A DNA stretch of 64,000 nt from positions 1-64,000 of the forward strand of contig SIBJ01000002.1 in NCBI GenBank assembly GCA_009695195.1. The letters run 5' to 3'. Numbering within the stretch: position 1 is the first letter of the stretch; each line of letters begins with the position of its first letter. The stretch is from Pedosphaera sp. GTDB taxonomy: Bacteria > Verrucomicrobiota > Verrucomicrobiia > Limisphaerales > JADLHS01. Under the pieces are notes generated by a model that saw only the letters and a list, made by a program, of their open reading frames with translations, was not told the DNA's origin and ran no database searches. Shown in pieces: positions 6,061-64,000 of this stretch. Made by a program: the position numbers and the translations under genes.

Positions 6061-6130
6061 GTCAAAGGCGGCGTAGCTGCACGCCGTTCGGAGGTCGGAA
6101 AACGTCGGGCGCGATTGGCGCAGTGAACGA

Positions 6131-6171
6131 TTCTCCCTCTCCCCGGGGGAGAGGGCCGGGGTGAGGGCGAG
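6131..6171. repeat. CCCTCTCCCC palindromic repeat
   Basis: TCTCCCTCTCCCC faces GGGGGAGAGGG and is followed by CCGGGGTGAGGGCGAGC. It lies in the divergent space between the PhnP-like gene and recN. Related copies occur inside the BNR gene linker (1446-1490) and between the two SDR genes (17423-17583). Confidence 0.75.
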
Positions 6172-6237
6172 CGTGCAACCAACTTTTAGTTTTGCTCAAT
6201 GGATTCATTCCGATCAAATTGCGCGCGCACTTTAGCC

Positions 6238-8046
6238 ATGTTGACGACGCTGCGCATCAAAAACCTCGCCCTCGTGGCCGACCTCACGCTGGAACTCCAG
6301 CCGGGTTGCAACGTCGTCACCGGCGAGACGGGCGCGGGCAAGTCCATCATCATCGGCGCGCTGAACCTTGTCCTCGGCGAACGCGCCGACCGCACGCTCA
6401 TCCGCAGCGGCAGCGATGCGTGCTCGGTGGAAGCCGTGTTCGATGTGTGTGCGTTGCTCGCCCGCAAACCGGAGCGCCGAGCACCGTCTCGGCACGTTTC
6501 AGCCGACGACGACCAACTGGCCGAGACGGTGCTCGGCGCTCCGGCGCTGAAAACTTACCTCGACGAGAATGGCCTTGAACCGTGCAACGACAACCAGCTC
6601 GTCCTCAAACGCACCTTCACCAGCGCGGGAACGAACCTCCAGTTCGTTAACGGCTCGCCCACCACGCTCAATGTTCTCGCCACCATCGGCGAATGGCTCG
6701 TGGACATTCACGGGCCGCACGATCATCAATCGCTCCTGCATCCCGCGAAACAACTCGCGATTCTCGACGCCTTTGGCGGATTGGAAAACGAGCGCGGGGC
6801 GTTCGGAGATTTGGTTCACCGCCGCGCCGTGCTCGAAACCGAAAAGTCCGCCCTGATCGTGGACGAGAAATCCTACGCGCAACAACTCGACCTGCTCCGC
6901 TTCCAAGTGAAGGAGATCGAGTCGGCGCGATTGCATCCGGACGAGGAAGAGCAGGTGACACAGGAGCACAATCGCGCGAGCAACGCCGCGAAGCTTTTAC
7001 AATTGAGCCAGGCCGCGCTGGATTTATTGAGCGAGAACGAGAACTCATTGCTGACGCAGGCCGGGGTGATGGGCCGCACGCTTCAAGAGTTGCAGCGCGT
7101 GGACGCGGGAGCGTCGGCGCTGACGGAACTTCACTCGCAAGCGGCGGCATCGTTCGGCGAGCTGCAAGCCGAACTCTCGCGCTACGCCGACAAAGTGGAC
7201 GTTGACCCCGCACGGCTCGCTGAGTTGGAGGAACGGCTCAATCTCATCCAATCGCTCAAGCGCAAATATGGCGCAACGCTGGCCGAGATCATCGCATTCG
7301 GCGAAGACGCTGGGGAAAAATTGCAATCGCTCGAATCCCGCGACGCCGAGCTGGCGCGCATCAACGCTGCGTTGGCGAAGTTGGACGGAGAATTATCCCG
7401 CGCCGGGAAAAATCTTTCCGCCGCCCGGCGCAAAGTGATCCCGCAACTTGCCAAAGCCGCCGCCAAGCAACTCGCCGATCTGGGCTTCAAGCAAAGTAAG
7501 TTTGACGTGGAGATCACCACGCCGTTTGTAGGAGACGAGGTAACGAGTCTCAAACCAAACGAAAGTCATCCCGACGGGTCGGGACTCACGTCGTCTCCTA
7601 CAATTCGGTCAACGGGTTTCGATGAGATTGAATTCCAATTCTCCCCCAACCTCGGCGAGCCGCCGAAGCCGCTGCGCGCCATCGCGTCCTCCGGCGAAAT
7701 GGCCCGCGTGATGTTGGCATTGAAAACCGTGCTCGCCGCGCAGGACGAAATTCCCGTGCTCATCTTCGACGAGGTTGATGCGAACATTGGCGGCGAGACC
7801 GCCAACGCCGTCGGCGAGAAAATGAAACAGATCGCGGCCAAACGACAGGTCTTGTGCATCACGCACCTCCCGCAAGTCGCCGCGCCGGCGGACGCGCATT
7901 ACGTCGTCACGAAGCAGGTGAAGGACGGCCGCACGATTTCGGAGATCACCTTGCTCGACCGGAAGTCCCGCGTGACCGAACTCGCCCGGATGCTCGGCGG
8001 CCAGAGCGATGCGGCGCGGAAACATGCGGAAGCCATGTTGAAATGA
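6238..8046 (+). CDS. recN: DNA repair protein RecN
   Basis: The ATG at 6238 begins MLTTLRIKNLALV, the conserved RecN opening; an upstream ATG at 6199 would add an unconserved 13 residues. RecN is an SMC-like ATPase in double-strand break repair. Walker A is GETGAGKS near residue 30. The coiled-coil arms run through the middle of the protein, and the signature SSGEMARVMLALK and Walker B VLIFDEVDANIGG lie near the C-terminus, before ITHLPQVAA. At 602 residues it is longer than the roughly 555 usual, because two palindromic elements are translated inside it: residues about 79-103 (72-bp element) and 430-455 (78-bp element). Both lie in variable loops between conserved blocks, so the protein is probably functional. 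Confidence 0.95.
   Translation: MLTTLRIKNLALVADLTLELQPGCNVVTGETGAGKSIIIGALNLVLGERADRTLIRSGSDACSVEAVFDVCALLARKPERRAPSRHVSADDDQLAETVLGAPALKTYLDENGLEPCNDNQLVLKRTFTSAGTNLQFVNGSPTTLNVLATIGEWLVDIHGPHDHQSLLHPAKQLAILDAFGGLENERGAFGDLVHRRAVLETEKSALIVDEKSYAQQLDLLRFQVKEIESARLHPDEEEQVTQEHNRASNAAKLLQLSQAALDLLSENENSLLTQAGVMGRTLQELQRVDAGASALTELHSQAAASFGELQAELSRYADKVDVDPARLAELEERLNLIQSLKRKYGATLAEIIAFGEDAGEKLQSLESRDAELARINAALAKLDGELSRAGKNLSAARRKVIPQLAKAAAKQLADLGFKQSKFDVEITTPFVGDEVTSLKPNESHPDGSGLTSSPTIRSTGFDEIEFQFSPNLGEPPKPLRAIASSGEMARVMLALKTVLAAQDEIPVLIFDEVDANIGGETANAVGEKMKQIAAKRQVLCITHLPQVAAPADAHYVVTKQVKDGRTISEITLLDRKSRVTELARMLGGQSDAARKHAEAMLK
6471..6542. repeat. 72-bp palindromic element, copy in recN
   Basis: Perfect 23-bp inverted arms (GGAGCGCCGAGCACCGTCTC + GGC at 6471-6493 and its exact complement at 6520-6542) surround a 26-bp centre. 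The total of 72 bp equals 24 codons. It is read in frame in recN as ERRAPSRH...AETVLGAP. Confidence 0.92.
7526..7603. repeat. 78-bp palindromic element (TTGTAGGAGACGA arms), copy in recN
   Basis: The left arm TTGTAGGAGACGAGGTAACG + AGTC and the right arm GACTCACGTCGTCTCCTACA + A are inverted copies with a small indel. The length of 78 bp equals 26 codons and keeps recN in frame. The intergenic copy at 28638-28715 has the same length. Confidence 0.88.
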
Positions 8047-8092
8047 ATTCCATTTTTTGAAGGCCGTCGTAACTTGGCGCAGAGTTTCCCGT

Positions 8093-11000
8093 ATGATTCG
8101 TTCGCGAACACAATTAGGAATGGCGGTCGGGATGTTGGCGGTGTCTTCCGGCTTCGTGGCCGTCGCCGCGCCGGCTGGCAAGATTGACTTCAATTCGCAA
8201 GTCCGCCCGGTCCTTTCGGCGAAATGTTTTCCCTGCCACGGCCCGGACGACAAATCGCGCAAGGCCAAGCTCCGGCTCGACCTCCGCAGCGAAGCCACGC
8301 GCGAGCGCGAAGGAATCATTCCCATCAGGCCCGGCGATTTGAAGAACAGCGAAATGATCCGCCGCATCACGGCGGGTGCAGATTCCGACGATCTCATGCC
8401 GCCGACGAAAGCCGGCCATCCGTTGAACGCGCGCGAAATTGAGTTGCTTAAAAAATGGGTTCTCCAAGGCGCGCCGTATTCGACGCACTGGTCGTTCACC
8501 AAACCCGTGCGGCCCACGCCGCCGAAAGTTTCACAACGCTCGTGGCCAAAGAACGCGATTGACGCTTTCATCCTGGCGAAACTTGACGCGAACAAACTCA
8601 AGCCCGCTCCGCCGGCGGATCGCCACGCGCTCATTCGCCGCGCGTCGCTCGATCTGATCGGTTTGCCGCCAACGCCCGCGGAAGTTGGCGCCTTCGTAAA
8701 CGACAAATCGCCGGACGCCTTCGAGCGTGTCGTTGATCGTTTGCTTTCGTCGCCCGCTTACGGCGAGAAATGGGCGCGGATGTGGATGGACATCGCGCGC
8801 TATGCCGACTCGACCGGTTACGGACAGGACTCCATGCGGCAGAGCAATCCATGGCCGTATCGCGACTGGGTCATCGCCGCGTTCAATCGCAATCTCCCGC
8901 TCCACCAGTTCACGATTGAACAACTCGCCGGCGACCTGCTCGACAATCCGACCGAGGAGCAACTCGTGGCGACGGCGTTTCATCGGAACACCATGACGAA
9001 TCTCGAAGGCGGCACGGACGATGAGGAATGGCGCGTGGCCGCCGTGAAAGATCGCGCGAACGTGACCGCGCAGGCCTGGATGGGGCTGACGATGGGTTGC
9101 GCGCAGTGCCACACGCACAAGTTCGATCCCATTTCACAGACGGAATATTACCAGTTCTACGCCTTCTTCAATCAGACTGAGGACAACGATCAACCCGACG
9201 AGCGACCGACGATGCCGTTGCTCAACGCCGAGCAACGCAAGCAGACGGCGGATTTGAAAGCCCAGATCGCCGCGCTGGAGAAAACAATTTCCACCAACAA
9301 TCCGGAACTGGAGCGCGAGTTCGCAAAGTGGGAGCAGGCGGCCCAAGGCCCCGAGCTTTGGCGCGTGGCGGACTTGAAGGAATTTAAGTCGCTGCGCGGA
9401 ACGGGGTTTCGGAAACTGGACGACGGCTCATTGCTGGCGGACACGAATTCGCCGGACAAGGAGATTTACACCTTGAAGTTCGATTCCTCCATGACGAACG
9501 CCACGGCGCTGCGGCTGGAAGTTTTGCCCGACGATTCGCTGCCGGCGCACGGCCCGGGCCGCGACGTGAGCGGCAATTTCGTTTTGACCGAACTGCAACT
9601 CACCGTGAAGTCGTCCGCCGCCGTGGCCCAGCGCTCGCGGTTCGTGCGTATCGAATTGCCGGGAGATAAGCGCATTCTGTCGCTGGCCGAGGTGCAAGTT
9701 TACTCCGGCGGGGAAAACGTCGCGACGAACGGCAAGGCGTCGCAGTCGAGTGTGGATTACGACGGGCCGGCGGAGCGCGCGATTGATGGCAAGACGGATG
9801 GCGAATTTGAAAAGGCGAAATCCACCACGCACACGCGCGAGGAGGCGAACCCGTGGTGGGAGGTGGATTTGGGCGCGGAACAGACTCTGGATTCGGTCGT
9901 GGTGTGGAATCGCACCGACGGCGGCGCGGGCGTCAGCGCGCGGCTGGCGAACTTCCGACTCGTGGCGCTCGACGCCGCGCGCCAGCCGGTGTGGACGACG
10001 CAGGTGGCGACCGCCCCGAAGAAGAACGTGAAGCTGAACGCGCAGGAGCGGACGGCCGTGTTCCACCGCGCGACGGCGACGTTCGAACAGAAAGATCTTG
10101 AAGCCGCGCATTTGACGAGCGGCGAAGCCGACCCGAAACGCGGCTGGGCCGTTGGCGGCGCGCAAGGCAAGGCGCACGCCGCGGTCATCGAGTTTTCCGA
10201 GCCGTTGCCCGCCGGCGAAGTCACCGTCAAGCTCACGCAAAATTTTGGGAAGCAACATTCCCTCGGCCGCTTTCGGCTGGCGCTGACCGATGCGATGGTA
10301 CCGCGCATCGCGGTGCCGGAAAATCTTCAGCCCTCGCTCGCCCTCGCGGCGGACCAGCGCTCGCCCGCCCAGCGGCAGGAATTGTTGCAATGGTTTCAAC
10401 AGTTCGCCGCCGCCACCGCCGAGATTCGCCGGCAGATCGAGCCGTTGCAGAAGGAGCTCGACGTCATCAAGCCGCTGCAGTTGCCGGTGATGCGCGACTT
10501 CGCCGCCGACAAGCGCCGCGTCACGCGCCTGATGAACAAAGGCAACTATCTTGAGCCGGTGGATGAAGTCACCGCCGCTGTGCCCGCGTCATTCAATGCG
10601 TGGCCCGCCGATGCGCCGACGAACCGGCTCGGCCTGGCGAAGTGGCTGATGAGTCCCGAGAATCCGCTCACGGCGCGCGTGATGGCAAATCGTTTCTGGG
10701 CACAGTTGTTCGGGGTCGGCTTGGTGGAGACCGAGGAAGACTTCGGCACGCAAGGTTCGCTGCCCACGCATCCCGAGTTGCTCGACTGGCTCGCGATTGA
10801 ATTGCGCGAAGGCGGCTGGGACGTGAAAAAGTTTTTGAAGACCATCGTGATGAGTTCGACGTATCAACAATCATCGCGCGTCACGCCGGAACTGCTCGCA
10901 AAGGATCCGCGCAATCGCCTGCTCTCGCGTTCCCCACGGCGACGACTGGAGGCGGAAGTGATCCGCGATCAGGCACTGGCGCTCGGTGGATTGCTCAGCC

Positions 11001-11563
11001 CAAAAATCGGCGGGCCGAGCGTCTATCCCCCGCAGCCGGACGGGCTGTGGCGCGTGGCGTTTGATGGGATGCGCGCATATCCGACCAGCACGGGTGAGGA
11101 TCGTTATCGTCGCGGGCTCTACACGGTCTGGCGGCGCACCGTTCCGTATCCGAGCATGACGACCTTCGACGCTCCGAGCCGCGAGAGCTGCACGTTCCGC
11201 CGGCTGCCCACGAACACGCCCTTGCAAGCTTACGTGACGTTAAACGATCCGGTTTATCTCGAAGCGGCGCAGGCGCTGGGCCGGCGATTGGTGCGCGAAG
11301 GCGGTGCGACGGTCGAGGAACGGATTCGCTTTGGGGTGAATCTGGTTTTGTCCCGACCCGCCACGAAAGATCAAATCACCGCGCTGACAAAACTCTTTGA
11401 ATCTGAACTGGCGCATTATCGCAGCGCGGAGAAGGATGCCTTAAAGCTCGCGACCGAACCGCTCGGCGCTTTGCCGAAGGACCTGAGCTCCGCCGAAGCT
11501 GCGGCGTGGACGGTGATCGCGAATGTGTTGTTGAATCTGGATGGAGTTTTGACGGAAGGCTGA
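8093..11563 (+). CDS. PSD1-type cytochrome c / DUF1549 / DUF1553 protein with inserted discoidin domain
   Basis: The ATG at 8093 opens a signal peptide (MIRSRTQLGMAVGMLAV...APA); a TTG 12 codons upstream is less likely. The domains in order are: planctomycete-type cytochrome c with haem motif CFPCHG near residue 43; DUF1549 including a second CxxCH (CAQCHTHKFDP); an F5/8 type C (discoidin-like) domain around residues 520-660 (LAEVQVYSGGENVA, NPWWEVDLG); and C-terminal DUF1553 (NRFWAQLFG, SRSPRRRLEAE). Such proteins are abundant in Planctomycetota and Verrucomicrobiota and nearly always precede a DUF1501 gene, as here. They are thought to act in the periplasm on polysaccharides or sulfated glycans, but no activity is established. 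The discoidin-like domain suggests carbohydrate binding. Confidence 0.88.
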   Translation: MIRSRTQLGMAVGMLAVSSGFVAVAAPAGKIDFNSQVRPVLSAKCFPCHGPDDKSRKAKLRLDLRSEATREREGIIPIRPGDLKNSEMIRRITAGADSDDLMPPTKAGHPLNAREIELLKKWVLQGAPYSTHWSFTKPVRPTPPKVSQRSWPKNAIDAFILAKLDANKLKPAPPADRHALIRRASLDLIGLPPTPAEVGAFVNDKSPDAFERVVDRLLSSPAYGEKWARMWMDIARYADSTGYGQDSMRQSNPWPYRDWVIAAFNRNLPLHQFTIEQLAGDLLDNPTEEQLVATAFHRNTMTNLEGGTDDEEWRVAAVKDRANVTAQAWMGLTMGCAQCHTHKFDPISQTEYYQFYAFFNQTEDNDQPDERPTMPLLNAEQRKQTADLKAQIAALEKTISTNNPELEREFAKWEQAAQGPELWRVADLKEFKSLRGTGFRKLDDGSLLADTNSPDKEIYTLKFDSSMTNATALRLEVLPDDSLPAHGPGRDVSGNFVLTELQLTVKSSAAVAQRSRFVRIELPGDKRILSLAEVQVYSGGENVATNGKASQSSVDYDGPAERAIDGKTDGEFEKAKSTTHTREEANPWWEVDLGAEQTLDSVVVWNRTDGGAGVSARLANFRLVALDAARQPVWTTQVATAPKKNVKLNAQERTAVFHRATATFEQKDLEAAHLTSGEADPKRGWAVGGAQGKAHAAVIEFSEPLPAGEVTVKLTQNFGKQHSLGRFRLALTDAMVPRIAVPENLQPSLALAADQRSPAQRQELLQWFQQFAAATAEIRRQIEPLQKELDVIKPLQLPVMRDFAADKRRVTRLMNKGNYLEPVDEVTAAVPASFNAWPADAPTNRLGLAKWLMSPENPLTARVMANRFWAQLFGVGLVETEEDFGTQGSLPTHPELLDWLAIELREGGWDVKKFLKTIVMSSTYQQSSRVTPELLAKDPRNRLLSRSPRRRLEAEVIRDQALALGGLLSPKIGGPSVYPPQPDGLWRVAFDGMRAYPTSTGEDRYRRGLYTVWRRTVPYPSMTTFDAPSRESCTFRRLPTNTPLQAYVTLNDPVYLEAAQALGRRLVREGGATVEERIRFGVNLVLSRPATKDQITALTKLFESELAHYRSAEKDALKLATEPLGALPKDLSSAEAAAWTVIANVLLNLDGVLTEG

Positions 11564-11568
11564 AACCC

Positions 11569-11610
11569 GGGAGCGCCGGCGTCTTCGCCGGCGCGGACGC
11601 CGGCGCTCCC
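11569..11610. repeat. 42-bp palindrome GGGAGCGCCGGCGTC
   Basis: Perfect 15-bp inverted arms at 11569-11583 and 11596-11610, five bases after the PSD1 stop. Its GGAGCGC terminus is shared with the 72-bp element family. It may serve as a terminator-like hairpin between the PSD1 and DUF1501 genes, though no T-tract follows. Confidence 0.8.
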
Positions 11611-14567: not shown

Positions 14568-16289
14568 TCACGACTTATGCCGAAGCGTGCGCGTCAATCG
14601 CGCCAACATCGCGACCGCAACGGTCGCAATGCACCCCCACCCAAACCAATCGCCGTGCCGATTGTAAAAAGTCGGCTCGCGCTTTTCGCCGGGCGCGAGC
14701 AGGGGGATTTGCGCCGTCATCACGCCCGCGCCATGCACGCTGCCGTTCGCGTCGCGAAAGACCTGTCGCACCACGCCGCGCGCATCAATCCAGCAGGTCA
14801 CGCCGTTGTTGCAGCAGCGGAGCAAGGGCACGCCGTTCTCCACCGCGCGGAAGACGGCGCTCGCCGCGTGCTGCCATTGCTCGCCGCCTTCGCCGAACCA
14901 GCCGTCGTTGGTGAGGTTCACGAGAAAGTCCGTGTCGTCGCTCATGTAATCGCGCACGTGGTGCGGGAACACATCCTCAAAACAGATCAGCGTGGTGGTG
15001 TGGATGGGAGCGCCGAGCACCGCCTCGGCTCGTTGCGAATTGTCGCTCGAATCGGGCCGAGACGGTGCTCGGCGCTCCAGCACGAACGGCGTGACGCGGT
15101 CGCCGGGCGTGAAACCAACCGAATCGGCGCTGCCGGGAACAAACCATTTCAGGAAGGGCAGCCAGCGCACCAGCGGAATGTATTCGCCGAACATCACGAG
15201 CTGGCGTTTGCAGTAGCGCGAAACCAGTTCGCCATCAGGACTGATTAGGAAACTGGCGTTGAAATAATCGGCGGCGTTGGTGTCGCGCGAATTTCTCACC
15301 GGCTCGGCGTCATCGCTGCCGACGATGAACCAGAGTTTGTTGGAGCGCGCGAGTGCGGTGATCGGATCGAGCATGTCCTCGTTGTAACGTATTTTTTCCG
15401 GCACGGCGGCTTCGGGCCAGAGGAGCAGGTCGGTTTCATTCGTCAATGCGCGCCGGGTGAGTTCAAGCAATTGATTGAAGCGCCGGTCGTTCTCCGCTTC
15501 GTTCCAGATGACGGTTTGCGGAATGCTCGGCTGGACGAAAGTGACGCGGAAAGTTGGACGGACGTCATCTCCGTTCGGTCGGACTTGCCGGACGCCGAAC
15601 GCGCACAGCCCGAGCACCGCGAACAACGGAAGTATGATTTCGCCAAGCCACGCGTAACGGGCGGTTGGTTTTTCCAGCAACGCGCGCACGGCGGCGAACA
15701 ACGAGAGCGATGCCCAGACGACCACGAACGAGACGCCGTAAACACCGGTCACGGACGCGATCTGGATGAGCGGGATGAGTTTGAATTGCGAGGCGCCGAC
15801 GAAATTCCACGGAAAACCGGAGAGCAGCCGGGCTTGGATCATTTCCAGCGTGACCCACGCCGCCGCACCGAGCAAAGCCCAACCAGTGCGCGCGAGCCAA
15901 CTTTGGACTCTGGACTCTGGACTCTGGACTGAGGTCATCCACACCCACGCCGCTTGATACAACGCGAGGTAGGCGCTCAATGCGATCCAACCGATGATTT
16001 GAAATCCCGACCCGGGAATCAGCAGCAGCCACCAAAGCGCGGTCAAATGGAACGCCAATCCGGCGATGTAACCGATGCGAAACGCCGCGCGACCGTGCGT
16101 GCCGTTCGCGCCGGTGAGCATCAGCGCGGGAGCGATCCACGCGAAACCGGCGATGCCGATATTCGGGAACGCCGCCGCGAGGGAAAGACCGGCGACCACC
16201 GCGATGACCAGGCGGCTGCGAGTGGAAGGTTGGCCGGTGAGCAGATTCAACCGCGCGAGGTTGGCGGAAAAGTGGAGAGATTCAAGCAT
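14568..16289 (-). CDS. lnt: Apolipoprotein N-acyltransferase
   Basis: An inner-membrane enzyme that adds the third acyl chain to lipoproteins. About eight N-terminal membrane segments (residues 25-235) precede a nitrilase domain. The catalytic triad is visible: Glu of WPEAAVPE (about 292), Lys of YCKRQLVMFGEYIP (about 358) and Cys of LICFEDVFP (about 434), with NLTNDGWFG following. The 573 residues include the 72-bp element at about 404-428, just before the catalytic Cys strand, and a GGACTCT heptamer tract at about 119-128 in a membrane loop. All catalytic residues are intact. Confidence 0.93.
   Translation of the reverse strand: MLESLHFSANLARLNLLTGQPSTRSRLVIAVVAGLSLAAAFPNIGIAGFAWIAPALMLTGANGTHGRAAFRIGYIAGLAFHLTALWWLLLIPGSGFQIIGWIALSAYLALYQAAWVWMTSVQSPESRVQSWLARTGWALLGAAAWVTLEMIQARLLSGFPWNFVGASQFKLIPLIQIASVTGVYGVSFVVVWASLSLFAAVRALLEKPTARYAWLGEIILPLFAVLGLCAFGVRQVRPNGDDVRPTFRVTFVQPSIPQTVIWNEAENDRRFNQLLELTRRALTNETDLLLWPEAAVPEKIRYNEDMLDPITALARSNKLWFIVGSDDAEPVRNSRDTNAADYFNASFLISPDGELVSRYCKRQLVMFGEYIPLVRWLPFLKWFVPGSADSVGFTPGDRVTPFVLERRAPSRPDSSDNSQRAEAVLGAPIHTTTLICFEDVFPHHVRDYMSDDTDFLVNLTNDGWFGEGGEQWQHAASAVFRAVENGVPLLRCCNNGVTCWIDARGVVRQVFRDANGSVHGAGVMTAQIPLLAPGEKREPTFYNRHGDWFGWGCIATVAVAMLARLTRTLRHKS
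15007..15078. repeat. 72-bp palindromic element, copy in lnt
   Basis: Arms 15007-15029 and 15056-15078 are inverted copies with one mismatch in 23. The length is exactly 72 bp. Read on the minus strand it gives ERRAPSRPDS...AEAVLGAP in frame with lnt, the same frame and nearly the same peptide as in recN. Confidence 0.92.
15905..15933. repeat. GGACTCT heptamer tract inside lnt
   Basis: GGACTCTGGACTCTGGACTC + TGGACTGAG is four 7-bp units. It is translated in the minus frame as SVQSPESRVQS, in a loop between membrane segments. Confidence 0.8.
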
Positions 16290-17422: not shown

Positions 17423-17583
17423 GCTCGCCCTCACCCTTGCCCTCTCCCCCGAGGAGAGGGAACAGCCGTCGGGCGCTCGCCGGTTTGCTGGAGGCCGTCG
17501 CGCCAACCTAGCCTCACCTCCATCATCGAGACGGCGAAGGATTCTCCCTCTCCCTGGGGGAGAGGGGCGGGGTGAGGGCGAGC
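17423..17583. repeat. Large inverted repeat of the CCCTCTCCC family
   Basis: GCTCGCCCTCACCC...CCTCTCCCCCGAGGAGAGGG at the left is mirrored by CCCTCTCCCTGGGGGAGAGG...GGGGTGAGGGCGAGC at the right, with about 85 bases between. It fills the gap between the two SDR genes and could terminate or attenuate transcription. Confidence 0.8.
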
Positions 17584-18676: not shown

Positions 18677-20536
18677 TCAGAGCTGGCCGAGCAATTTCAG
18701 CGCGTTGCGCCGGGCGATGGCCATGATCGAGCCTTGCGGGTTCACGCCGGGCGCGGTGCAAAGCAGGCTGGCGTCGCTCACGAAAAGATTTTTGAAACCG
18801 TGAACGCGACCGAATGAATCCGTGGCGCATCGGTTGCGGTCTTCGCCCATCGGGCACGAACTGAAAAGATGGATCGTCATCAAGTTGGCCAGACCGTCTG
18901 GCAGGATTTCGGGAAGCTTGCCGAGCGAGATGTCATCGCGCAACACCGGGCCGCGCGTCAGGCTCGGATAAAGTTCCGTTGCACCGGACGCGAAAAGAAT
19001 TTGCGCAAGCTTGCGCAGGCCATCGCCGAGATTACGCCGGTCGGTGGCGGTCAATCCGTAACGCACCAGCGGATCGCGAAAGCCGGGCAGCGCGCGAACT
19101 GTGCCGTGGCCTTCGCTGGTGATCATCGCGTAGTAGATCGCCGTGCGCTCCCAGGTCTGTGCGGTTTCACGCGCGGCCTCCGGGTGGTCAATCAATCCCA
19201 ACGCGACGTACGCGGGCGAACTGATCGAGCAGCCAAAGCTGAGGCGCGGTGAGAATTCTTTCACTTGATGAACGGGCACGCCAATGCCGGCCGAGTTCAC
19301 TGCCTCCGGGAAGCGCGCGACAATCTTTGCCGTCGGATGGACTTGCAGTGAGTCGCCGATGTTGCGCGAGATGCCGCTGCGACGGAGCAAGGCGGGCGTG
19401 TGAACGGCGCCGGCGCAGAGGAACAGGTTCTCCGCAGTGATCTCGACCAGACTGGTGGCTTGGTGCTGCGCCTCGATGAGCCAGCCATTGCCGGCTTGGC
19501 GAAAATGGTGCGCGCGCGTTTGGGAGAGCAATCGCCCACCAGCTTTCAGGAAGCGCGGGATGAAGGTCTCGGTCATGGACTGGCGCTGGCCGGGTGCGGA
19601 GCGCGGAGCGCGGAGTGCGGAACCCTCGTAACGAAACCAGCGGGGAATTTCGAGCGATTTCCAGCCGAGCTTCGTCGCGCCGTCGTGCAACTTCAGCGAT
19701 GCGAGCGGCGCTGTTCCGGGCAGCAACGAAACCGACACATCCCGCTCACAGGCTTCGAAGTGTGGCGACAAATCATTTTCGGAAAGAGCTTCGACGCGGA
19801 ATTCCTTCCGCCAGCGTTCAAGAATCTCCGGCGGTGTGCGATGGTAAAGTCCGCTGTTGATTTCACTACCGCCGCCGACGCAACGGCCTTCGACGTAGGC
19901 GATCTTATTTTTTCCCAGCGCGACGGTTTGCCCGCCGTTGCGATATTTCTGGAGCATCTCATCCTGCGAGAATGGTGCGCAGGAAGTCAGCGGCAGGTGC
20001 GCGCCTTCTTCAAGCAGCAGAACATCGCGCCCGGCTTCGGCGAGCAGGCAGGCGGTGATCGCGCCGCCTGGGCCGGAGCCGATGACGACGATTTCGGCGC
20101 GGAGGTTTTGCGGGGCGCGGAGTTCCAGCTCGGCGCGTTGGCGATCACTTTCATTTTCGCGCAGAGCTGGAGCTCTGCGCTCCGCTTCGCGGCTGTAAAG
20201 CGCAAGCGTGGCGAGGCTCTCGAAATAGCGGATCAGATCGCGTTGGAATCCAACGCCGGAATTCTTCCACGCGGCGATCGGTCGCGCGCGTTTCTCCGGT
20301 GCTTGCCGGTGAAATGCTTTTCCGCCTTTCAACACGCCGAGCGAATCGAAACCCAGCGTCGCGAGTCGCATCGGTGTGCGCAGGTAATCCGGCATTTGCG
20401 CGTGCTGCGTGAGGATGAATCGTGTGAGGTCGTTGTGCGGGGGCGAGAGTTCCGGCGCGGTTTCGTGCGGGTGCGCGAGCGAGTAAGCGAGCGCGGAAAC
20501 CGCGTCGTGAAACCACTGGTGGCCCGGCGTGTTCAT
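18677..20536 (-). CDS. GMC-family FAD-dependent oxidoreductase
   Basis: The protein has 619 residues. An N-terminal helical domain (1-115) precedes the FAD-binding GSGPGG near residue 154. Further FAD and GMC signatures are EGRCVGGGSEINSG, CAGAVHTPALL, HLFSSCPMG and the C-terminal GVNPQGSIMAIARR. GMC enzymes oxidise alcohol groups of sugars, sterols and related compounds. The 72-bp element is translated at about 118-142, in the linker before the FAD domain, and a GCGGAGC heptamer tract at about 304-314. Both leave the motifs intact. The gene lies 7 bp after the HAD-UbiA gene. Confidence 0.9.
   Translation of the reverse strand: MNTPGHQWFHDAVSALAYSLAHPHETAPELSPPHNDLTRFILTQHAQMPDYLRTPMRLATLGFDSLGVLKGGKAFHRQAPEKRARPIAAWKNSGVGFQRDLIRYFESLATLALYSREAERRAPALRENESDRQRAELELRAPQNLRAEIVVIGSGPGGAITACLLAEAGRDVLLLEEGAHLPLTSCAPFSQDEMLQKYRNGGQTVALGKNKIAYVEGRCVGGGSEINSGLYHRTPPEILERWRKEFRVEALSENDLSPHFEACERDVSVSLLPGTAPLASLKLHDGATKLGWKSLEIPRWFRYEGSALRAPRSAPGQRQSMTETFIPRFLKAGGRLLSQTRAHHFRQAGNGWLIEAQHQATSLVEITAENLFLCAGAVHTPALLRRSGISRNIGDSLQVHPTAKIVARFPEAVNSAGIGVPVHQVKEFSPRLSFGCSISSPAYVALGLIDHPEAARETAQTWERTAIYYAMITSEGHGTVRALPGFRDPLVRYGLTATDRRNLGDGLRKLAQILFASGATELYPSLTRGPVLRDDISLGKLPEILPDGLANLMTIHLFSSCPMGEDRNRCATDSFGRVHGFKNLFVSDASLLCTAPGVNPQGSIMAIARRNALKLLGQL
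19594..19622. repeat. GCGGAGC heptamer tract inside the GMC gene
   Basis: GTGCGGAGCGCGGAGCGCGG + AGTGCGGAA is four 7-bp units, translated on the minus strand as GSALRAPRSAPGQ. It lies between two conserved blocks. Confidence 0.75.
20112..20183. repeat. 72-bp palindromic element, copy in the GMC gene
   Basis: It begins GGGGCGCGGAGTTCCAGCTC and ends GAGCTGGAGCTCTGCGCTCC, again exactly 72 bp. The arms differ at a few positions. Read on the minus strand it gives ERRAPALRENE...AELELRAP, in the same frame as the recN and lnt copies. Confidence 0.9.
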
Positions 20537-25436: not shown

Positions 25437-27395
25437 ATGAGCCACATTTCAAACCAACGTTCACAGGAATTTCTCGGGATCGCCGACCAGTTCAAACTGG
25501 GCGCGTTGACCACCGAATCATCGCATCCGGTGACGGCAAACTTGAGCGAGGTCGCGCGCAATGATATTTCCGCCGGCCTCAAACTGCTTTTCGACGTGGA
25601 TGACGACGTGGTGCGGAAGTATCGCGAGTTCGCCGAATCCGGTCGCGCGCGGCAAATCGCGGACACGCTGCTGGCTGCACTCAAGAACGGCGGGAAAGTT
25701 TTTTTCACGGGCTGTGGCTCGACGGGACGGCTGAGTATTCAACTGGTTTCCATCTGGCGGGATTTCTGGCAGCAGCAAAGCAGGAGACAAGGTAACGAGT
25801 CTCCAACTAACACAAAAATAGAGACTCCTCACGTCGTCTCCTACAGTCCAGAGGATTGGGAAAACCGCGCGTTCCCGGTCATGGCCGGCGGCGACTTCGC
25901 GCTCATCAAGGCCGTGGAAGGCTTCGAGGACTTCACGGCGTTCGGCAAGAAACAGATCGGCGACCTTGGCGTTGGCGACAAGGACGTCGTGTTCGCCATC
26001 ACGGAGGGCGGCGAGACTTCCTTCGTCATCGGCACGGCGTGGCAGGGCGTGGAAGTCGGCGCGAAGGTTTATTTCGTTTACAACAATCCTGACGACATCC
26101 TTTGCCAGCACGTGCAGCGCAGTCGCGAAGTGATCCAGGATGGGCGCATCGAGAAGATCAACCTCACCACCGGCCCGATGGGCATCACCGGCTCGACGCG
26201 GATGCAGGCGACGAGCATCCAGCTCGCGGTGATGGTGACGGTGCTCGAAATGGTCGTGCGCGATTTGCTTTTGGAGTGCGGCGGGAAGCGAAGCGCCATG
26301 CCGCTTTCGGGCCCGGATGGTGATTCTAAAAGCGGTGTCGCCGCTGCGCTCTGCCACCGCAGTCCAAATGAAGTCCCTGACCAGTTTCTGGCGAAGCTCA
26401 CCGAACTTCACGCCACGTTGAAAACTCCGGCTGTCCTCGCACAACTCGCGAAGCTCACGGCGATGGAGGAATCGGTTTATCGCGCCGGGCGGAAGAACAA
26501 TTATTTCGCCGACCGCGTGGGCATTGACATGCTCACGGACACGACCGAGCGCTCGCCGACGTATTGCACGCCGCCGTTCCGCAAGTTCGACGACACCACG
26601 GCGACCGAATCGTGGGCGTTTCTTTACGTGCCGCATCCTGACTCGCCGCGAGCATGGGAGCGCGTGTGCAAGCGCACGCCGCGTTGCGTCGAGTGGCACG
26701 CGGAGGACGTGCGCGGCCTCGTGCCCGACGACAAGTACGCGCGCACCGTCGAGATCATCGGCAAGATCAGTTACGCGGAACTGATGCGCTTCCGCATCGG
26801 ACTGGATGGGATCAAGAACCGCCCGCTCGGCGCCGCCGACAGCGCGGTCGCGCTCGTCGTCGAGAGTGAGAAAGCCGCCCTGCTCTCGCCGGAGGGATTT
26901 CAACGGCAACAACTCGACGCAGCGAAACAGGCCGGCGCGAAGACGGGTTTGATTTTTCTCGGCAGTGCGGAGGCGTGTCGCGAGGTCGGCGTGTTCGTGG
27001 CGAAGTGGAATCCCGATTGCGTCGCGGTGCTCGTGCCCGTGCCGCCGGCGGATTTATTGCTCGCCGGCGTGATGCGCGTCGGTTTGAAGATGCTGCTGAA
27101 CACGCTCTCGACCTGCACGATGGTTCGCCTCGGGCGCGTGATGGGCAACTACATGATCTGGGTCGTGCCGAGCAACCTGAAGTTGATTGACCGCTCGACA
27201 CGTTACATTCAACGGCTGACGAATCTGGGTTACGAGGATGCGAACCGTTTGCTCTTCGAGGTCATCGAATACGTCGAGCCGCGCATGAAAGCAGACCAGG
27301 CGTATCCGCCGGTGGTCGGTGTGAGTGTGATGCGCCAGCGTCATGGGTTGAGCAACGAGGAAGCCGAGCGACGCCTGCGAGAAGAACTGGCTTGA
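25437..27395 (+). CDS. Double SIS-domain protein, MurQ/glucokinase-regulatory-protein-like
   Basis: The protein has 652 residues. The first SIS domain carries FFTGCGSTGRLSIQ near residue 90 and TGPMGITGSTRMQATS near 245, the MurQ (N-acetylmuramate-6-phosphate etherase) signatures. The second half has VMRVGLKMLLNTLSTCTMVR, VMGNYMIWVVPSNLKL and DRSTRYIQRLTNLG, the MurQ C-terminal block. Two SIS units resemble mammalian GKRP, which binds fructose phosphates. Two different palindromic elements are translated inside it, at about 115-136 and 278-310, each in a position between conserved blocks. It probably handles a cell-wall or hexose phosphate; whether it has etherase activity is open. Confidence 0.85.
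   Translation: MSHISNQRSQEFLGIADQFKLGALTTESSHPVTANLSEVARNDISAGLKLLFDVDDDVVRKYREFAESGRARQIADTLLAALKNGGKVFFTGCGSTGRLSIQLVSIWRDFWQQQSRRQGNESPTNTKIETPHVVSYSPEDWENRAFPVMAGGDFALIKAVEGFEDFTAFGKKQIGDLGVGDKDVVFAITEGGETSFVIGTAWQGVEVGAKVYFVYNNPDDILCQHVQRSREVIQDGRIEKINLTTGPMGITGSTRMQATSIQLAVMVTVLEMVVRDLLLECGGKRSAMPLSGPDGDSKSGVAAALCHRSPNEVPDQFLAKLTELHATLKTPAVLAQLAKLTAMEESVYRAGRKNNYFADRVGIDMLTDTTERSPTYCTPPFRKFDDTTATESWAFLYVPHPDSPRAWERVCKRTPRCVEWHAEDVRGLVPDDKYARTVEIIGKISYAELMRFRIGLDGIKNRPLGAADSAVALVVESEKAALLSPEGFQRQQLDAAKQAGAKTGLIFLGSAEACREVGVFVAKWNPDCVAVLVPVPPADLLLAGVMRVGLKMLLNTLSTCTMVRLGRVMGNYMIWVVPSNLKLIDRSTRYIQRLTNLGYEDANRLLFEVIEYVEPRMKADQAYPPVVGVSVMRQRHGLSNEEAERRLREELA
25779..25846. repeat. TGTAGGAGACGA-type palindromic element in the SIS gene
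   Basis: The left arm CAGGAGACAAGGTAACGAGT + CTC and the right arm GAGACTCCTCACGTCGTCTC + CTACA are inverted copies. The left arm matches 20 of 21 bases of the recN copy. It is translated as SRRQGNESPTNTKIETPHVV. Confidence 0.88.
26270..26368. repeat. About 99-bp palindromic element (TTGGAGTGCGG ends) in the SIS gene
   Basis: The ends TTTGGAGTGCGGCGGGAAGC and CTGCCACCGCAGTCCAAA are imperfect inverted copies, with the inner parts ATGCCGCTTT and AAAAGCGGTGT also paired. It is translated as ECGGKRSAMPLSG...AAALCHRSPN. A related copy lies at 54028-54137. Confidence 0.85.
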
Positions 27396-28637: not shown

Positions 28638-28715
28638 TTGTAGGCGACGACGTGAGGAGTCGTTCCGCAAAGGCGAGAGCTTCAACCTTTCGACTCCTCA
28701 CATCGTCGCCTACAA
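28638..28715. repeat. 78-bp palindromic element, intergenic copy
   Basis: Arms TTGTAGGCGACGACGTGAGG + AGTCG (28638-28662) and their complement (28691-28715) differ at one of 25 bases. It has the same length and ends as the recN copy, and lies between the isomerase gene and the next gene. Confidence 0.92.
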
Positions 28716-39292: not shown

Positions 39293-39625
39293 CGGATTGG
39301 GTCTCACACATTCTTAATGCTTCATTGGTCGCCGCGCATTTCGCGCAAGCCGGCCCCGGGCTGTAGGCCGGACGCTGACAACAACGGCCTCTCTCGAAGC
39401 ATTCGGCGCGCGCTTCGTGCGTGTCCCGCGAATTGTCTGCAGGACAGTGAACGGCTTTTGGACAAGTGCGACTGGCCGCGAGGCATTTCTTTCCGACATT
39501 TCTCGCCCGGCGCACGCGCGCGGCCACCCACGGCGGTTCACGTCTCCGCCGAGTTCATGGCTTTGTCGTTGAACCTGGTGGCATCTTGGGTGCTCCCTAA
39601 TCGGCGACGGTTGCGTGAACGCTTG
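39293..39625. other. Intergenic stretch before the NlpC/P60-like gene
   Basis: About 330 bases. A plus frame is open from 39317 and joins the downstream gene, but its N-terminal 80-100 codons are Arg/Cys/Pro-rich with no domain. An alternative start ATG at 39557 (MALSLNLVASW) is possible. No RNA gene or strong hairpin is seen. Confidence 0.4.
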
Positions 39626-40879
39626 ATGATTTTGAAAAATTCCTCCCATCCGCGCCTGAGTTTTTTTCTCCTGGGCGTCGTATCGAACTTCGTCGCCTTC
39701 GCGCTCGCGTTCATCTTCATCAATCACAAGCTCGCGGTTCGCGCGCGCATGCACGCGGATCCACAAATCGCCGGCCTGTGGGGCGTCATCGAGGTGCATC
39801 AGCTTCCGCTCGCCAATCCCGATGGCGTCCTGCCAGATCAAACCGACCGCCTGCAGAAGCCGCGCTGGTATTTTGAGAACTTCACCGAATTGCAACTGGT
39901 CCAACTGTTGCGCCGCTGCGAACTGCGCCCGATCCAAAAAAGCATCCTGCTCGACAAAAGATTTTGGACCGTCACCTCCAACGCCTGCATCCTCCTGCCG
40001 CCCGAACCGGTGATCTGGTCCCTGGCCCCGCGCGCGCGCGGCCTCATTTACTTGGCGCTGGCGAACTGTCCTTCGAATTATTCCCAGTGCTTCCCCTTCC
40101 GCTTCCCGCCGGAAATGTTCCGGGAACATCTCAAAGACTCCGGTCTCCAACCGGGCGACATCGAAAAAGTCAAACGCCTCGCCTACACCAACGCCGGTGC
40201 CGTCTGCTTCACCGACCTGAATCCGCTGCACGACGTCCTCAAGCCTGCCGAGTTCGAGAACCTCGTCGCCGCGCTCTACAATGTCCCCGCCTATACCCTC
40301 CGCCTCGTCGTCCCGCCCGACGCCGACCTCGACCAGCTCATCAAGTATTGGGGCCGGGGCGGACGCGAGAAAATCGTCTCGCCCTTGATCAAAGGTCTTG
40401 CCCGTGTGCCGGGTGGCGGCGCCATCAACATCGCCCAACTCCTCCCGCCCTTCCCCCGCTCGCGCCTCTACACCTACCCCGAAGCCTGGGACGATCCCAA
40501 CGCCGCGCGCGAAGATTGCTTCTTTACCTCGATGAATTTTTTCAACGAAACCGCCAACACGAGTTTTTTCGCGCGCGACTTCACCCGCAAAACCCTCGCC
40601 GACGAGTTTGAAGTCGTCGAAGGCAGCCCGACCTTTGGCGACCGCGTGCTCTTTCTCGACGCGAAAGGCTCGGGCATCCACATGTGCACCTACGTCGCGG
40701 GCGATTTTGTGTTCACCAAGAACGGCATCAACCGCGCCGAGCCGTGGGTGCTCATGCGGATGTCCGACGTGCTCGCAATCTATTTCGGCCAGCACCCCGG
40801 CGATGGCCGCACGGTGATCTATCGGCACAAAGACAAGGCGGCCCTCGCAGCCTCAACCGCGCAACTTCCGGCGGAATGA
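39626..40879 (+). CDS. Membrane-anchored protein with possible NlpC/P60-like cysteine peptidase domain
   Basis: The ATG at 39626 gives 417 residues: an N-terminal membrane segment (FFLLGVVSNFVAFALAFIFI), then a large soluble domain. A Cys at the start of a helix (REDCFFTSMNFFN), then GDRVLFLDAKGSGIHMCTYVAGDFVFTKNG and PWVLMRMSDVLA, follow the Cys-His order and GD.v.f...IH...y...d spacing of NlpC/P60-type amidases. That assignment is my inference; overall the protein is an uncharacterised Verrucomicrobiota family. It probably acts in the periplasm. Confidence 0.6.
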   Translation: MILKNSSHPRLSFFLLGVVSNFVAFALAFIFINHKLAVRARMHADPQIAGLWGVIEVHQLPLANPDGVLPDQTDRLQKPRWYFENFTELQLVQLLRRCELRPIQKSILLDKRFWTVTSNACILLPPEPVIWSLAPRARGLIYLALANCPSNYSQCFPFRFPPEMFREHLKDSGLQPGDIEKVKRLAYTNAGAVCFTDLNPLHDVLKPAEFENLVAALYNVPAYTLRLVVPPDADLDQLIKYWGRGGREKIVSPLIKGLARVPGGGAINIAQLLPPFPRSRLYTYPEAWDDPNAAREDCFFTSMNFFNETANTSFFARDFTRKTLADEFEVVEGSPTFGDRVLFLDAKGSGIHMCTYVAGDFVFTKNGINRAEPWVLMRMSDVLAIYFGQHPGDGRTVIYRHKDKAALAASTAQLPAE

Positions 40880-41095
40880 CTCCGCGGCAATGGTGCTCAT
40901 CTGGCGGTCAAATTGCTCGACCTTCGCGCGCGGCAAAACTCGTTTTCAACGCAAAGACGCGGAGGCGCGGCGATATTAATTTGGACGTTGAAGCGGCGTG
41001 AACACCGCGCGCCACGGAGCGGAGCGCGGGTCTGTGACCCGCAGCGGTTTGGTTAGCAGACGGCGGGCTGCGGCCTCACAGAGCCGCGCTCCGGT
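40880..41095. other. Repeat-filled intergenic region
   Basis: It holds a degenerate CGCAAAGACGCGGAGGCGCG tract at about 40959-40978, followed by the intergenic 72-bp element at 41021-41092. No gene is seen. It separates two convergent genes. Confidence 0.6.
41021..41092. repeat. 72-bp palindromic element, intergenic copy
   Basis: It begins GGAGCGCGGGTCTGTGACCC and ends CTCACAGAGCCGCGCTCC, again exactly 72 bp. The arms share the GGAGCGC ends of the coding copies but differ inside. It lies three bases beyond the end of the DUF2971 gene. Confidence 0.85.
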
Positions 41096-41947
41096 TCAAC
41101 GAGTGCCGTGCAAGGCCGCCGCTTGTAAATCTCCAGTCCGCAATTGCGACCCGGCGACATGAGCAGGAACGCCGTGAAGTTTGAGCATGTTCCGAACTTC
41201 ATCGCGAAAGCCAAATGGACTTGCAGGATGAATCACGACTTTCCGAATGAGTTGCTTCCGATCAACTGGAATCAATTTGTATTCGGCCTCTGGTTGATCG
41301 TGGCCGTCCATGGTCAAAACCCGCAATTCGGATTCACGAATATGTGCATCTCTATCTTTTGCAGCGAATGGCGCGGTATAAGACCAATCAGGGCGTGGTT
41401 GTCCAGCGGGGTAATAAAACATCCGGAGAATCTCAACAGGCTGCCCGGTTAAAGCCGCCTGTAAAGACCCAACAGTGCTGCGCACGGCAACCGAACGAGG
41501 CTCACCGCTAACAAATGAATTCCACATCCACGCCGATTCTTTTTTGCGAATACTCCAACAATGAATGAATGCTCGTTGACGAAATATCTGATTGTTCCAT
41601 TGAAACTGTGACCACTCATTTTTTTCTGACTGGACTGTGAACCCAGCGTGCTCAAGTAAATTCTGAACAACTGGCGTCCATTTGTGGGCATTCGTATCTG
41701 AATACATCCCATCATTCTTATCAGTTTGTTTGTCGAGCCGAGTTAGCCAAAGAGCTTTGTTTTGTAGAAGGAACTGAAAGTAATCAAAGCGGACGTAATG
41801 CCAAATGAAAGCATCTGAAGGCGGAAGAATATGGGGATTCTGTGAATCTTCAACGGGCACGCTGGACACCACGCTGTTGTTTCGCCTGTCTATGATTCCC
41901 AGACTCATTGAGCTTTGAGGCCGGGCTTTCGTCAATTTACTTTTCAT
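41096..41947 (-). CDS. DUF2971 family protein
   Basis: The 283 residues read HYVRFDYFQFLLQNKALWLTRLDKQTDKNDG, CWSIRKKESAWMWNSFVSGE, SVAVRSTVGSLQAAL and RESELRVLT, the DUF2971 pattern. The family is uncharacterised and often found in variable or defence regions. Its base composition is clearly more AT-rich than gltX, which suggests recent transfer. Its ATG overlaps the gltX stop (ATGA), so it would be translated together with the synthetase. Confidence 0.78.
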   Translation of the reverse strand: MKSKLTKARPQSSMSLGIIDRRNNSVVSSVPVEDSQNPHILPPSDAFIWHYVRFDYFQFLLQNKALWLTRLDKQTDKNDGMYSDTNAHKWTPVVQNLLEHAGFTVQSEKNEWSQFQWNNQIFRQRAFIHCWSIRKKESAWMWNSFVSGEPRSVAVRSTVGSLQAALTGQPVEILRMFYYPAGQPRPDWSYTAPFAAKDRDAHIRESELRVLTMDGHDQPEAEYKLIPVDRKQLIRKVVIHPASPFGFRDEVRNMLKLHGVPAHVAGSQLRTGDLQAAALHGTR

Positions 41948-61948: not shown

Positions 61949-64000
61949 ATGTTGTTTTTTCGCACGAAAATCCTCCCGCCGGTCGTTTTTCTTTTTCTCT
62001 ACGCCGGGTTCGCGTGCGTTTTGACCCAGGCCCAAACCAGCAACGTCACCGTCCGCGTGATGGCCTCCAACCTGTCCTCGGGCAACAATCAACGTTATGA
62101 ATCACCCGGGCTTGACATCCTTCAAGGCTTGAAGCCCGACCTCGTCGCGATGCAGGAGTTCAACGTCACCAATCAGTTCGGCTTCAACACCACTGCCGCC
62201 ATCAGCAACATGGTCGCCACAACTTTTGGCACCAATTTCAGCTACTACCGTGAAACCGGCTACAACATTCCCAACGGCGTCATCAGCCGTTATCCCATCC
62301 TGTCGAGCGGCAGTTGGCCCTCTGACGTCGGCGACCGCGGTTACGCCTGGGCGCAGATCGACCTGCCCGGTACCAACAATCTCTACCTCGTGAGCGTCCA
62401 CCTCAAGGCCAGTAGCGGCTCGGCAACCCAACGGGCCAGTGAGGCAGGAGTCGTCAAATCCAACATCCTGTTTTTCTTTCCCGCCGGCGCGTGGATCATC
62501 GTCGCCGGGGACATGAATCTGTATTCCGAAACCGAAGGCGCCATCGTCACCTTCAAAACTTTTCTCAGCGACAGCCCCGTACCCGCCGACCAAAGCGGCG
62601 ATCAGGATACAAACGCCGGACGCGCCGAACGCTACGACCGCGTGCTCCCGAGTTTTTCCTTCACCAACACGCTCACGCCCGTCGTCCTGCCGTCGCACAC
62701 CTTCGCCAACGGACTCGTCTTCGACTCGCGCGTTTACACGCCGCTCACTGACGTTCCGCCGGTGGTCTCGGGCGATTCCGGCGCCACCGGAATGCAGCAC
62801 ATGGGCGTGGTGAAGGATTTTCTAATCACCTTCGCCATCACGAACGGCGTCATCGCCCCGGTCATTACCAACCAACCGCAGAGCCTCACCGTCACGCAGA
62901 ACAACAACGCCAACTTCACCGTCCTCGCCGGCGGCACGGCGCCGCTGAGTTATCAATGGCGCTTCGGCGCGACGAACATCGGCGGCGCGACGGCCAGCAG
63001 TTACACCCGCACCGCCGCACAGGCGAACGACACCGGCAATTACACCGTCGTCATCACCAACACCGCCGGCAGCGTGACCAGTTCCGTCGCGACGCTGACC
63101 GTTCTCGTTCCGCCGGGCATCGCGACGCCGCCGCAAAGTCTCACCGTCACGCAAAACAACAACGCCACGTTCACCGTCGTTGCCACAGGGAATCCTGCGC
63201 CGGCTTACCAATGGCGCTTTGGCACGACCAACATCGCCGGCGCCACCACCAGCGCGTACACCCGCGTCAACGCGCAGACCAACGACGCTGGCAATTACAC
63301 CGTCGTCCTCACCAACGCCGCCGGTGGCCTCACGAGTGCCGTCGCCACGCTGACGGTTCTCGTTCCGCCGGGCATCGCGACGCAACCGCAAAGCCTGACC
63401 GTGACTCAAAACAACAACGCGACCTTCACCGTCGCCGCCACCGGCACCGCCACGCTCGGTTATCAATGGCGTTTCAACGCCGGCAACATCGCCGGCGCGA
63501 CCGCCAGTTCCTACACCCGCAGCAACGCGCAGACGAACGACGCCGGGAATTACACGGTCGTCATCACCAATTCCGCCGGCGGCCTCACCAGTGCCGTCGC
63601 CACGCTGACGGTTCTCGTTCCACCGGGCATCAGCACGCCCCCGCAAAATCAAACCGTCAGCCAGGCTGCCAACGCGACGTTCACCGTCACGGCGAGTGGT
63701 TCAGTGCCGCTGGGGTATCAATGGCGTTTCAACTCCGCCAGTATTGCCGGTGCCACCGCCAGCAGCTTCACGCGCGCAAACGCCCAACCCACCGATGTTG
63801 GAAACTACACCGTCGTCGTCACCAACGCCGCCGGCGGCGTGACCAGCGCGCCCGCGAGCCTCGCGCTCCAGATTCCCGCGCCGCTGCTCACAATTCTTTC
63901 CGCAGACGTGATCCAGTGGCAGGTATTGAGCAATCTGATTTATTCCGTCGAAGGAAAAACGAATGTGGAATCAACCAACTGGACATCGCTCGGCACCGCG
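61949..64000 (+). CDS. Secreted EEP-family nuclease/phosphatase with tandem Ig-like domains, C-terminus cut
   Basis: From the ATG at 61949 the frame stays open for 684 codons to the window edge. A signal peptide (LPPVVFLFLYAGFACVLTQA) is followed by an endonuclease/exonuclease/phosphatase domain (about 33-300) with VAMQEFN, ISRYPI, VSVHLKA, AGDMNLY and ERYDRVLPS. At the usual SDH site the chain reads MQHMGVVKDF, so the His is present but the Asp before it is Gln. Four Ig-like domains follow, each near 85 residues. It is probably extracellular. Activity may be altered by the missing Asp. Confidence 0.85.
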   Translation, partial: MLFFRTKILPPVVFLFLYAGFACVLTQAQTSNVTVRVMASNLSSGNNQRYESPGLDILQGLKPDLVAMQEFNVTNQFGFNTTAAISNMVATTFGTNFSYYRETGYNIPNGVISRYPILSSGSWPSDVGDRGYAWAQIDLPGTNNLYLVSVHLKASSGSATQRASEAGVVKSNILFFFPAGAWIIVAGDMNLYSETEGAIVTFKTFLSDSPVPADQSGDQDTNAGRAERYDRVLPSFSFTNTLTPVVLPSHTFANGLVFDSRVYTPLTDVPPVVSGDSGATGMQHMGVVKDFLITFAITNGVIAPVITNQPQSLTVTQNNNANFTVLAGGTAPLSYQWRFGATNIGGATASSYTRTAAQANDTGNYTVVITNTAGSVTSSVATLTVLVPPGIATPPQSLTVTQNNNATFTVVATGNPAPAYQWRFGTTNIAGATTSAYTRVNAQTNDAGNYTVVLTNAAGGLTSAVATLTVLVPPGIATQPQSLTVTQNNNATFTVAATGTATLGYQWRFNAGNIAGATASSYTRSNAQTNDAGNYTVVITNSAGGLTSAVATLTVLVPPGISTPPQNQTVSQAANATFTVTASGSVPLGYQWRFNSASIAGATASSFTRANAQPTDVGNYTVVVTNAAGGVTSAPASLALQIPAPLLTILSADVIQWQVLSNLIYSVEGKTNVESTNWTSLGTA
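62851..63870 (+). repeat. Four tandem 255-bp units encoding Ig-like domains
   Basis: The boundary CGTTCCGCCGGGCAT recurs at 63106, 63361 and (one base changed) 63616, giving an exact 255-bp (85-residue) period. Units two and three share long identical stretches such as SLTVTQNNNATFTV and NYTVV, which points to recent duplication; the first unit is more divergent. Confidence 0.88.

Follow-up and report, generated by a model that had tools for sequence, protein, structure and literature searches.

REPINs are doublets of REP sequences (Bertels and Rainey 2011, PMC3116915). Those described there are inverted REP doublets of about 70 bp, with conserved ends and a less conserved spacer, and the gene of the REP-associated tyrosine transposase (RAYT) is flanked by the same elements. 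The elements analysed here are alike in each of these respects, but differ from the REPINs of PMC3116915 in that 40% of the copies are genic and in frame, in their GGAG tag, in the several arm types found in a single genome, and in arms that differ at orthologous sites. The REP/BIME elements of Escherichia coli and their TnpAREP (PMC8266576; structure 4er8) offer a likeness both in the enzyme family and in the tagged hairpin that is its substrate. Positions 3-4 of the tag (AG), which choose the CT cleavage site in the published TnpAREP model (PMC8266576), are kept in GGAG, whereas the usual tag in E. coli is GTAG and the REPs there are extragenic.

REP dimers inside genes have also been reported, most of them in Opitutus terrae and with DNA-repair genes among the hosts (Di Nocera 2013, PMC3733652, in the part of its text that was available). 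The GTAG REPs of O. terrae, a member of the same phylum, are described in that part as dimers encoding 20-30 residues in genes such as uvrA, associated with RAYTs and including heterodimers, all of which resembles the present family; unlike them, this family carries a GGAG tag, and therefore no TAG stop within the tag. Arm types at orthologous sites are compared here, and the same part of PMC3733652 contains neither such a comparison nor arm turnover. The question whether transposition, gene conversion or both account for the spread of REPs dates from 1988 (Higgins et al., as cited in PMC3116915 and in the available part of PMC3733652), and gene conversion of REPs is itself an old suggestion (Higgins 1988, cited in that part of PMC3733652). 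Rickettsia palindromic elements (RPEs), in the available extract of PMC10969869, are likewise in-frame palindromes in unrelated conserved genes that yield a recurring peptide. They differ from the present elements in length (about 150 bp, compared with 60-81 bp here) and in lineage; several frames are used here, and the extract records no RAYT for RPEs.

The elements analysed here are very likely REPINs whose genic copies have been filtered for frame, with an unusual share of copies in frame. They would thus consist of two REP hairpins in inverted orientation with a variable spacer between them, and be the non-autonomous mobile DNA of a RAYT of the REP_Tyr_transpos family. Copies would land both in intergenic DNA and in genes, and a genic copy would persist only where its net effect leaves the reading frame intact. 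Once placed, an insert would be passed on over long periods, outlasting speciation and, at some sites, the split between genera. Its arms would give way to, or be homogenised with, the arm type that prevails in the genome at the time, possibly by RAYT strand exchange or short-tract conversion, such that spacers would stay site-specific and arms would evolve in concert.

The initial annotation held that such elements were little described in Verrucomicrobiota. Given the intragenic REP dimers already published for O. terrae (PMC3733652, available part), in-frame REPINs in this phylum are not new. Beyond that paper, a literature search that stopped short of most subscription journals found nothing on in-frame REPINs in Verrucomicrobiota and nothing on concerted evolution of REPs. 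Within the literature so covered, comparing sites between species appears to be new, as do the concerted arms and the shared loops.

The palindromes of the window and their family

Four palindromic elements had been annotated in the window, which is the whole 64,000-nt stretch of DNA analysed, and all four are present (Table 1). Their arms pair as reported, with a perfect 23-bp inverted repeat in recN and a single mismatch in lnt, and the DNA folding z-scores of the four elements (-9.6, -8.3, -5.9 and -5.5) are all far better than those of shuffled sequences. The four had been taken for copies of one sequence family, but they fall into three groups. The recN and lnt copies have type A arms (CCGAGCACCG, continuing CCGAGCACCG[T/C]CTCGGC), the copy in the GMC oxidoreductase gene has type E arms (AGAGCTCC), and the copy at 41021 is of a GGAG class further removed from these and resembles the repeats beside a RAYT on contig C35. 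A covariance model built from 33 copies recovers all four from the 64-kb window, together with the short copy at 11570, which is either one REP unit of this kind or a collapsed element. The initial annotation had missed other palindromic inserts in the window, the second one in recN among them.

Table 1. Palindromic elements of the window and the genes that carry them.
Feature	Position	Strand	Remarks
REPIN, arm type A, in frame in recN	6471..6542	+	residues ~92-115; perfect 23-bp arms
recN host gene, 615 aa	6199..8046	+	SMC_N and AAA_23 Pfam matches; two palindromic inserts
Second in-frame recN palindrome, 75-bp GTAG-tagged REP doublet, GTAGGAGACGAGGT...ACGTCGTCTCCTAC	7528..7602	+	
Short 40-bp GGAG palindrome	11570..11609	.	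directly 3' of the stop of ORF 8057-11563
lnt host gene, apolipoprotein N-acyltransferase	14568..16289	-	LNT_N and CN_hydrolase
REPIN, arm type A, in frame in lnt	15007..15078	-	
GMC oxidoreductase host gene	18677..20536	-	
REPIN, arm type E, in frame in GMC oxidoreductase gene	20112..20183	-	orthologous copy in G001
GTAG-type palindrome related to the 7528-7602 insert	25782..25845	+	open frame inside ORF 25437-27395
GGAG REPIN of a different class, GGGTCTGTGACCCGCAGC arm	41021..41092	.	gap of convergent ORFs 39317-40879 (+) and 41096-41947 (-)

The genome-wide pattern search proposed in the initial annotation finds many more copies. The pattern GGAGCGC-N40-60-GCGCTCC has 71 matches in the 4.46-Mb genome, compared with 3 for the reversed pattern that served as the control. 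The palindromes are real and biological. The covariance model finds at least 75 copies in this genome, and copies in 22 of the 38 genomes searched, this one included; class-level counts of the exact pattern are near the control in most genomes and enriched in a few. The set analysed below consists of 82 copies from this genome, each taken with about 1.5 kb of flanking sequence. These dispersed copies are 60-81 bp long. The fixed unit of 72 bp or 24 codons that had been proposed is rejected, given that genic copies span 60-78 bp and non-genic copies 67-81 bp with the same mode of 71-72 bp in both; 24 codons is the natural modal length and not a rule.

Each element is an inverted pair of GGAG-tagged hairpins of about 23 nt with a variable spacer between them, and as expected of a REPIN the whole can form one hairpin. 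An arm starts with the 5' GGAG tag, present in more than 90% of aligned copies, and continues with a small hairpin (GCCGAG-loop-CTCGGC in type A, with a 5-6-bp stem); the two arms then pair together. In the 23-bp outer stem, 96.4% of cells are paired, 11 of the 23 pairs have changed on both sides, and the covariation score is 0.315, compared with 0.085 for shuffled alignments. The small hairpin within each arm covaries as well, and both kinds of stem keep their pairing across arm types. As in the GTAG REP superfamily, a stem lies next to the tag; the unpaired 5' GTAG tag of that superfamily is absent from the GGAG family and present in the second recN insert.

Copies within genes and at empty sites

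Genic status was assigned from a codon-usage score on both flanks and checked by homology; two copies directly preceded by a stop (L014 and L072) were left out of the genic set, and four (L004, L018, L029 and L069) were included on homology. By this measure, 33 of the 82 copies (about 40%) lie inside genes and 49 do not. All 33 keep the reading frame and add a loop of roughly 24 residues to the host protein, where about a third would be expected to do so without selection (P about 2e-16). Frame-breaking genic copies were sought among the 82 and none was found, and the 12 same-strand copies with a change of frame between their flanks lie at most 18 codons past a stop, between co-directional genes. 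Selection on protein function would explain the frame rule. Copies that keep the frame are possible because the type A arms contain no stop codon in any frame, and because about 24 residues form a tolerated extra loop. The second base of GGAG differs from that of the usual GTAG, which removes the TAG stop codon from the tag, and this may help coding use.

The three genic copies of the window are indeed read in the same phase, giving peptides of the ERRAPSR...AETVLGAP type, but one frame is not general. Phase 0 (GAPSTVSAR) is used by the 5' arm in 16 of the 33 genic copies, phase 1 (ERRAPSR) in 13 and phase 2 (SAEHRLG) in four. The 3' arm is read as AE[T/A]VLGAP in 26 of the 33 (chi-square P = 2e-7). 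The single conserved reading frame suggested at first is therefore rejected for the 5' arm, which uses all three phases, and stands as a bias for the 3' arm. For annotation, the shared peptide is to be regarded as the product of a mobile element and not as a domain.

The hosts include RecN, RecQ, UvrA, an Mfd-like protein, TsaD, MnmE, an MnmC2-like protein and PrmC, as well as FolC, CysS, PheT, the type III pantothenate kinase (CoaX), Lnt and the GMC oxidoreductase. Dozens of natural insertions of about 24 residues, evidently tolerated by RecN, UvrA, PrmC, CysS, PheT, MnmE and others, amount to a map of insertable loops. DNA-repair genes make up four of the 33 hosts (RecN, RecQ, UvrA and the Mfd-like protein), and several other hosts act on tRNA, much as PMC3733652 remarks for REPs elsewhere.

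Empty sites were identified in other genomes, all of them metagenome-assembled (MAGs), the nearest relative being distant (flanking protein identity roughly 45-95%). The initial annotation had noted that homologous residues in relatives would speak against insertion. In RecN, 28 homologues and the copy in G001, the only other genome found for the genus, align on both sides without the insert, such that all 29 relatives compared lack it. Compared with these relatives the protein is longer by a net 27 residues (81 bp), which exceeds the 72-bp element by 9 bp, so the boundary is not clean; the alignment of this one empty site shows 9 extra bases and no clean target site duplication of the sort associated with classical MITEs of DDE transposases. 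Both genomes of the genus have an element at the CoaX site, which is empty in ten relatives, G003 among them. The lnt site holds GGAG REPINs in G001, G008 and G010 and is empty in G007, G009 and G033. In G002, G005 and G006 the same site holds a non-palindromic sequence of similar length, perhaps a decayed element.

Arms and spacers at shared sites

The host protein shows which sites are orthologous, and genic copies can therefore serve as fixed, alignable reference points at which arm turnover is directly measurable. Within this genome (G000), the 44 type A elements have arms that are 95.7% identical and spacers that are 57% identical (53% when shuffled), which is the REPIN pattern of conserved ends and a less conserved spacer. 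Sixteen sites are filled in both G000 and G001. At type A sites, the arms are 71% identical to those of the G001 ortholog, compared with 91% between unrelated loci of this genome (over 16 positions). About five of the 16 positions per arm differ from the ortholog, yet the arms mostly pair within each species. The spacers at the 16 shared sites are more alike than those of permuted partners (P = 5e-5), most clearly in PrmC (80% identity), CoaX (78%) and the GMC oxidoreductase (68%); the relation is undetectable at several sites, and at five the true partner ranks 10th or worse of 16. The lnt spacer is 75% identical between G000 and G010, which belongs to another genus, and the arms around it are different. 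Mosaic elements with two different arm types also exist.

As judged from these sequence comparisons, the arms undergo concerted evolution, which probably arises from arm-by-arm replacement. On the simplest reading, the sites and spacers would be older than the present arms, and the arms would have been replaced from other copies, sometimes singly. A more tentative extension, given somewhat less than even weight, is that certain surface loops of conserved bacterial proteins are long-lived docking sites. An in-frame insert would persist there as long as the genus or family itself, and a RAYT or short-tract conversion would exchange its arms, in some cases individually, for those of whichever REP type was active at the time. 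If this were true, these proteins would carry a loop with ends that are rewritten genome-wide in concert.

It is possible instead, though rather doubtful, that no arms are exchanged and that REPINs repeatedly and independently enter the same permissive loops, the arm type being that of the family currently active in the genome. Palindromes of other kinds do occupy the same loops in other genera. GTAG-type doublets are found in PrmC in G008 and G011, in a permease in G002 and G005, in a solute-binding protein in G005 and G011, and in MnmE in G007, and CCCTCACCCCGGCCCTCTCC-type repeats lie at several of the same loops in G003. The shared sites with spacers that are not recognisably related fit such repeated entry as well. 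However, independent insertion fails to explain related spacers under different arms (PrmC, CoaX, and lnt between G000 and G010), the 44 copies in one genome with common arms and unlike spacers, or the mosaic elements. Because the spacer evidence is weak at several sites, a mixture of arm replacement with independent insertion is likely, and some shared sites may be independent insertions.

REPs often sit between converging genes. The copy at 41021 does so, and this, together with the paired changes in both stems, which indicate that pairing is maintained, would suit a third explanation, in which the arms are kept alike not by copying but by selection for a function at the DNA or RNA level, such as the binding site of a genome-specific protein or an mRNA hairpin. 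This is improbable, given that 16 variable positions at about 90 arms would have to converge on one sequence and that the sister genome has many arm types at once.

RAYT genes and other repeats

Pfam Y1_Tnp identifies six candidate transposases in this genome and more in relatives. A 224-aa protein on contig C80 of G001 scores 86.9 bits to the NCBIfam model NF047646 (REP_Tyr_transpos; cut-off 80) and matches the E. coli-type TnpArep structure 4er8 (E 4e-6). This RAYT has a GGAGCGC...GCGCTCC element on each side, both with the same arm type, and is thus flanked by the same elements in the manner of REPINs. In the genome under study, such flanking is seen only for the other GGAG class and for a broken RAYT, not for type A. 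The RAYT-like gene on contig C35 has an open frame with GGAG repeats of the 41021 kind on either side, and G036 also has a RAYT-like gene between GGAG repeats. The RAYT on contig C122 (L046:949-1536 and beyond) lies between a type C element on its upstream side and one of type A downstream. A type A arm and a frameshift interrupt the gene, a break that is possibly a MAG error. Among the Y1_Tnp loci of this genome, none is an intact RAYT bordered on each side by type A arms, and no GGAG REPIN pair surrounds the loci other than C35 and C122. A RAYT may have moved the REPINs, whose presence or absence varies between species. At one other locus (L037:1303-2054), 83-nt inverted repeats with GTAG-type hairpins enclose an open frame of 172 aa that matches Y1_Tnp and is probably the partner of another REP family.

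The initial annotation had compared the elements to RPEs. The comparison is apt for their behaviour, as palindromes inserted in frame (in 33 of 33 genic copies) in the variable loops of unrelated conserved proteins and absent from relatives, but this is no RPE-like orphan: it is a REPIN for which a RAYT partner can be identified. That it is a true relative of RPEs, a selfish element with coding capacity as its function, is very improbable. Although in-frame insertion in unrelated genes and a recurring peptide are described for RPEs too, the available extract of PMC10969869 gives RPEs the greater length noted above and families of their own, and here a RAYT partner exists, 49 of the 82 copies are non-genic, more than one frame is read, and the arm sequence yields the peptide as a by-product. 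Chance GC-rich palindromes or an assembly artefact, for which nothing speaks but the MAG status of the genome, are refuted by the reversed control and by the same sites being filled in independently assembled genomes.

Repeats of other families also occur. At the second recN site (7528-7602), most relatives are shorter and G003 and G008 have another repeat. An element related to this second insert is found at 28640-28714, where it is apparently intergenic. Another palindromic repeat family, TTCTCCCTCTCCCCGGGGGAGAGGGCCGGGGTGAGGGCGAGC, is present at 6125-6172 and 17536-17583, and its relatives fill the same protein loops in G003. In one relative, CAINLR01, the MnmC2-like site carries a type A REPIN (L223, around 1094-1204) with a further palindrome, CTCAAGCTTCAGCTTG..., nested in its spacer. 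Finally, a repeat at 62829-63893 occurs in four tandem copies at a spacing of 255 nt, which are 63-77% identical to the reference copy.
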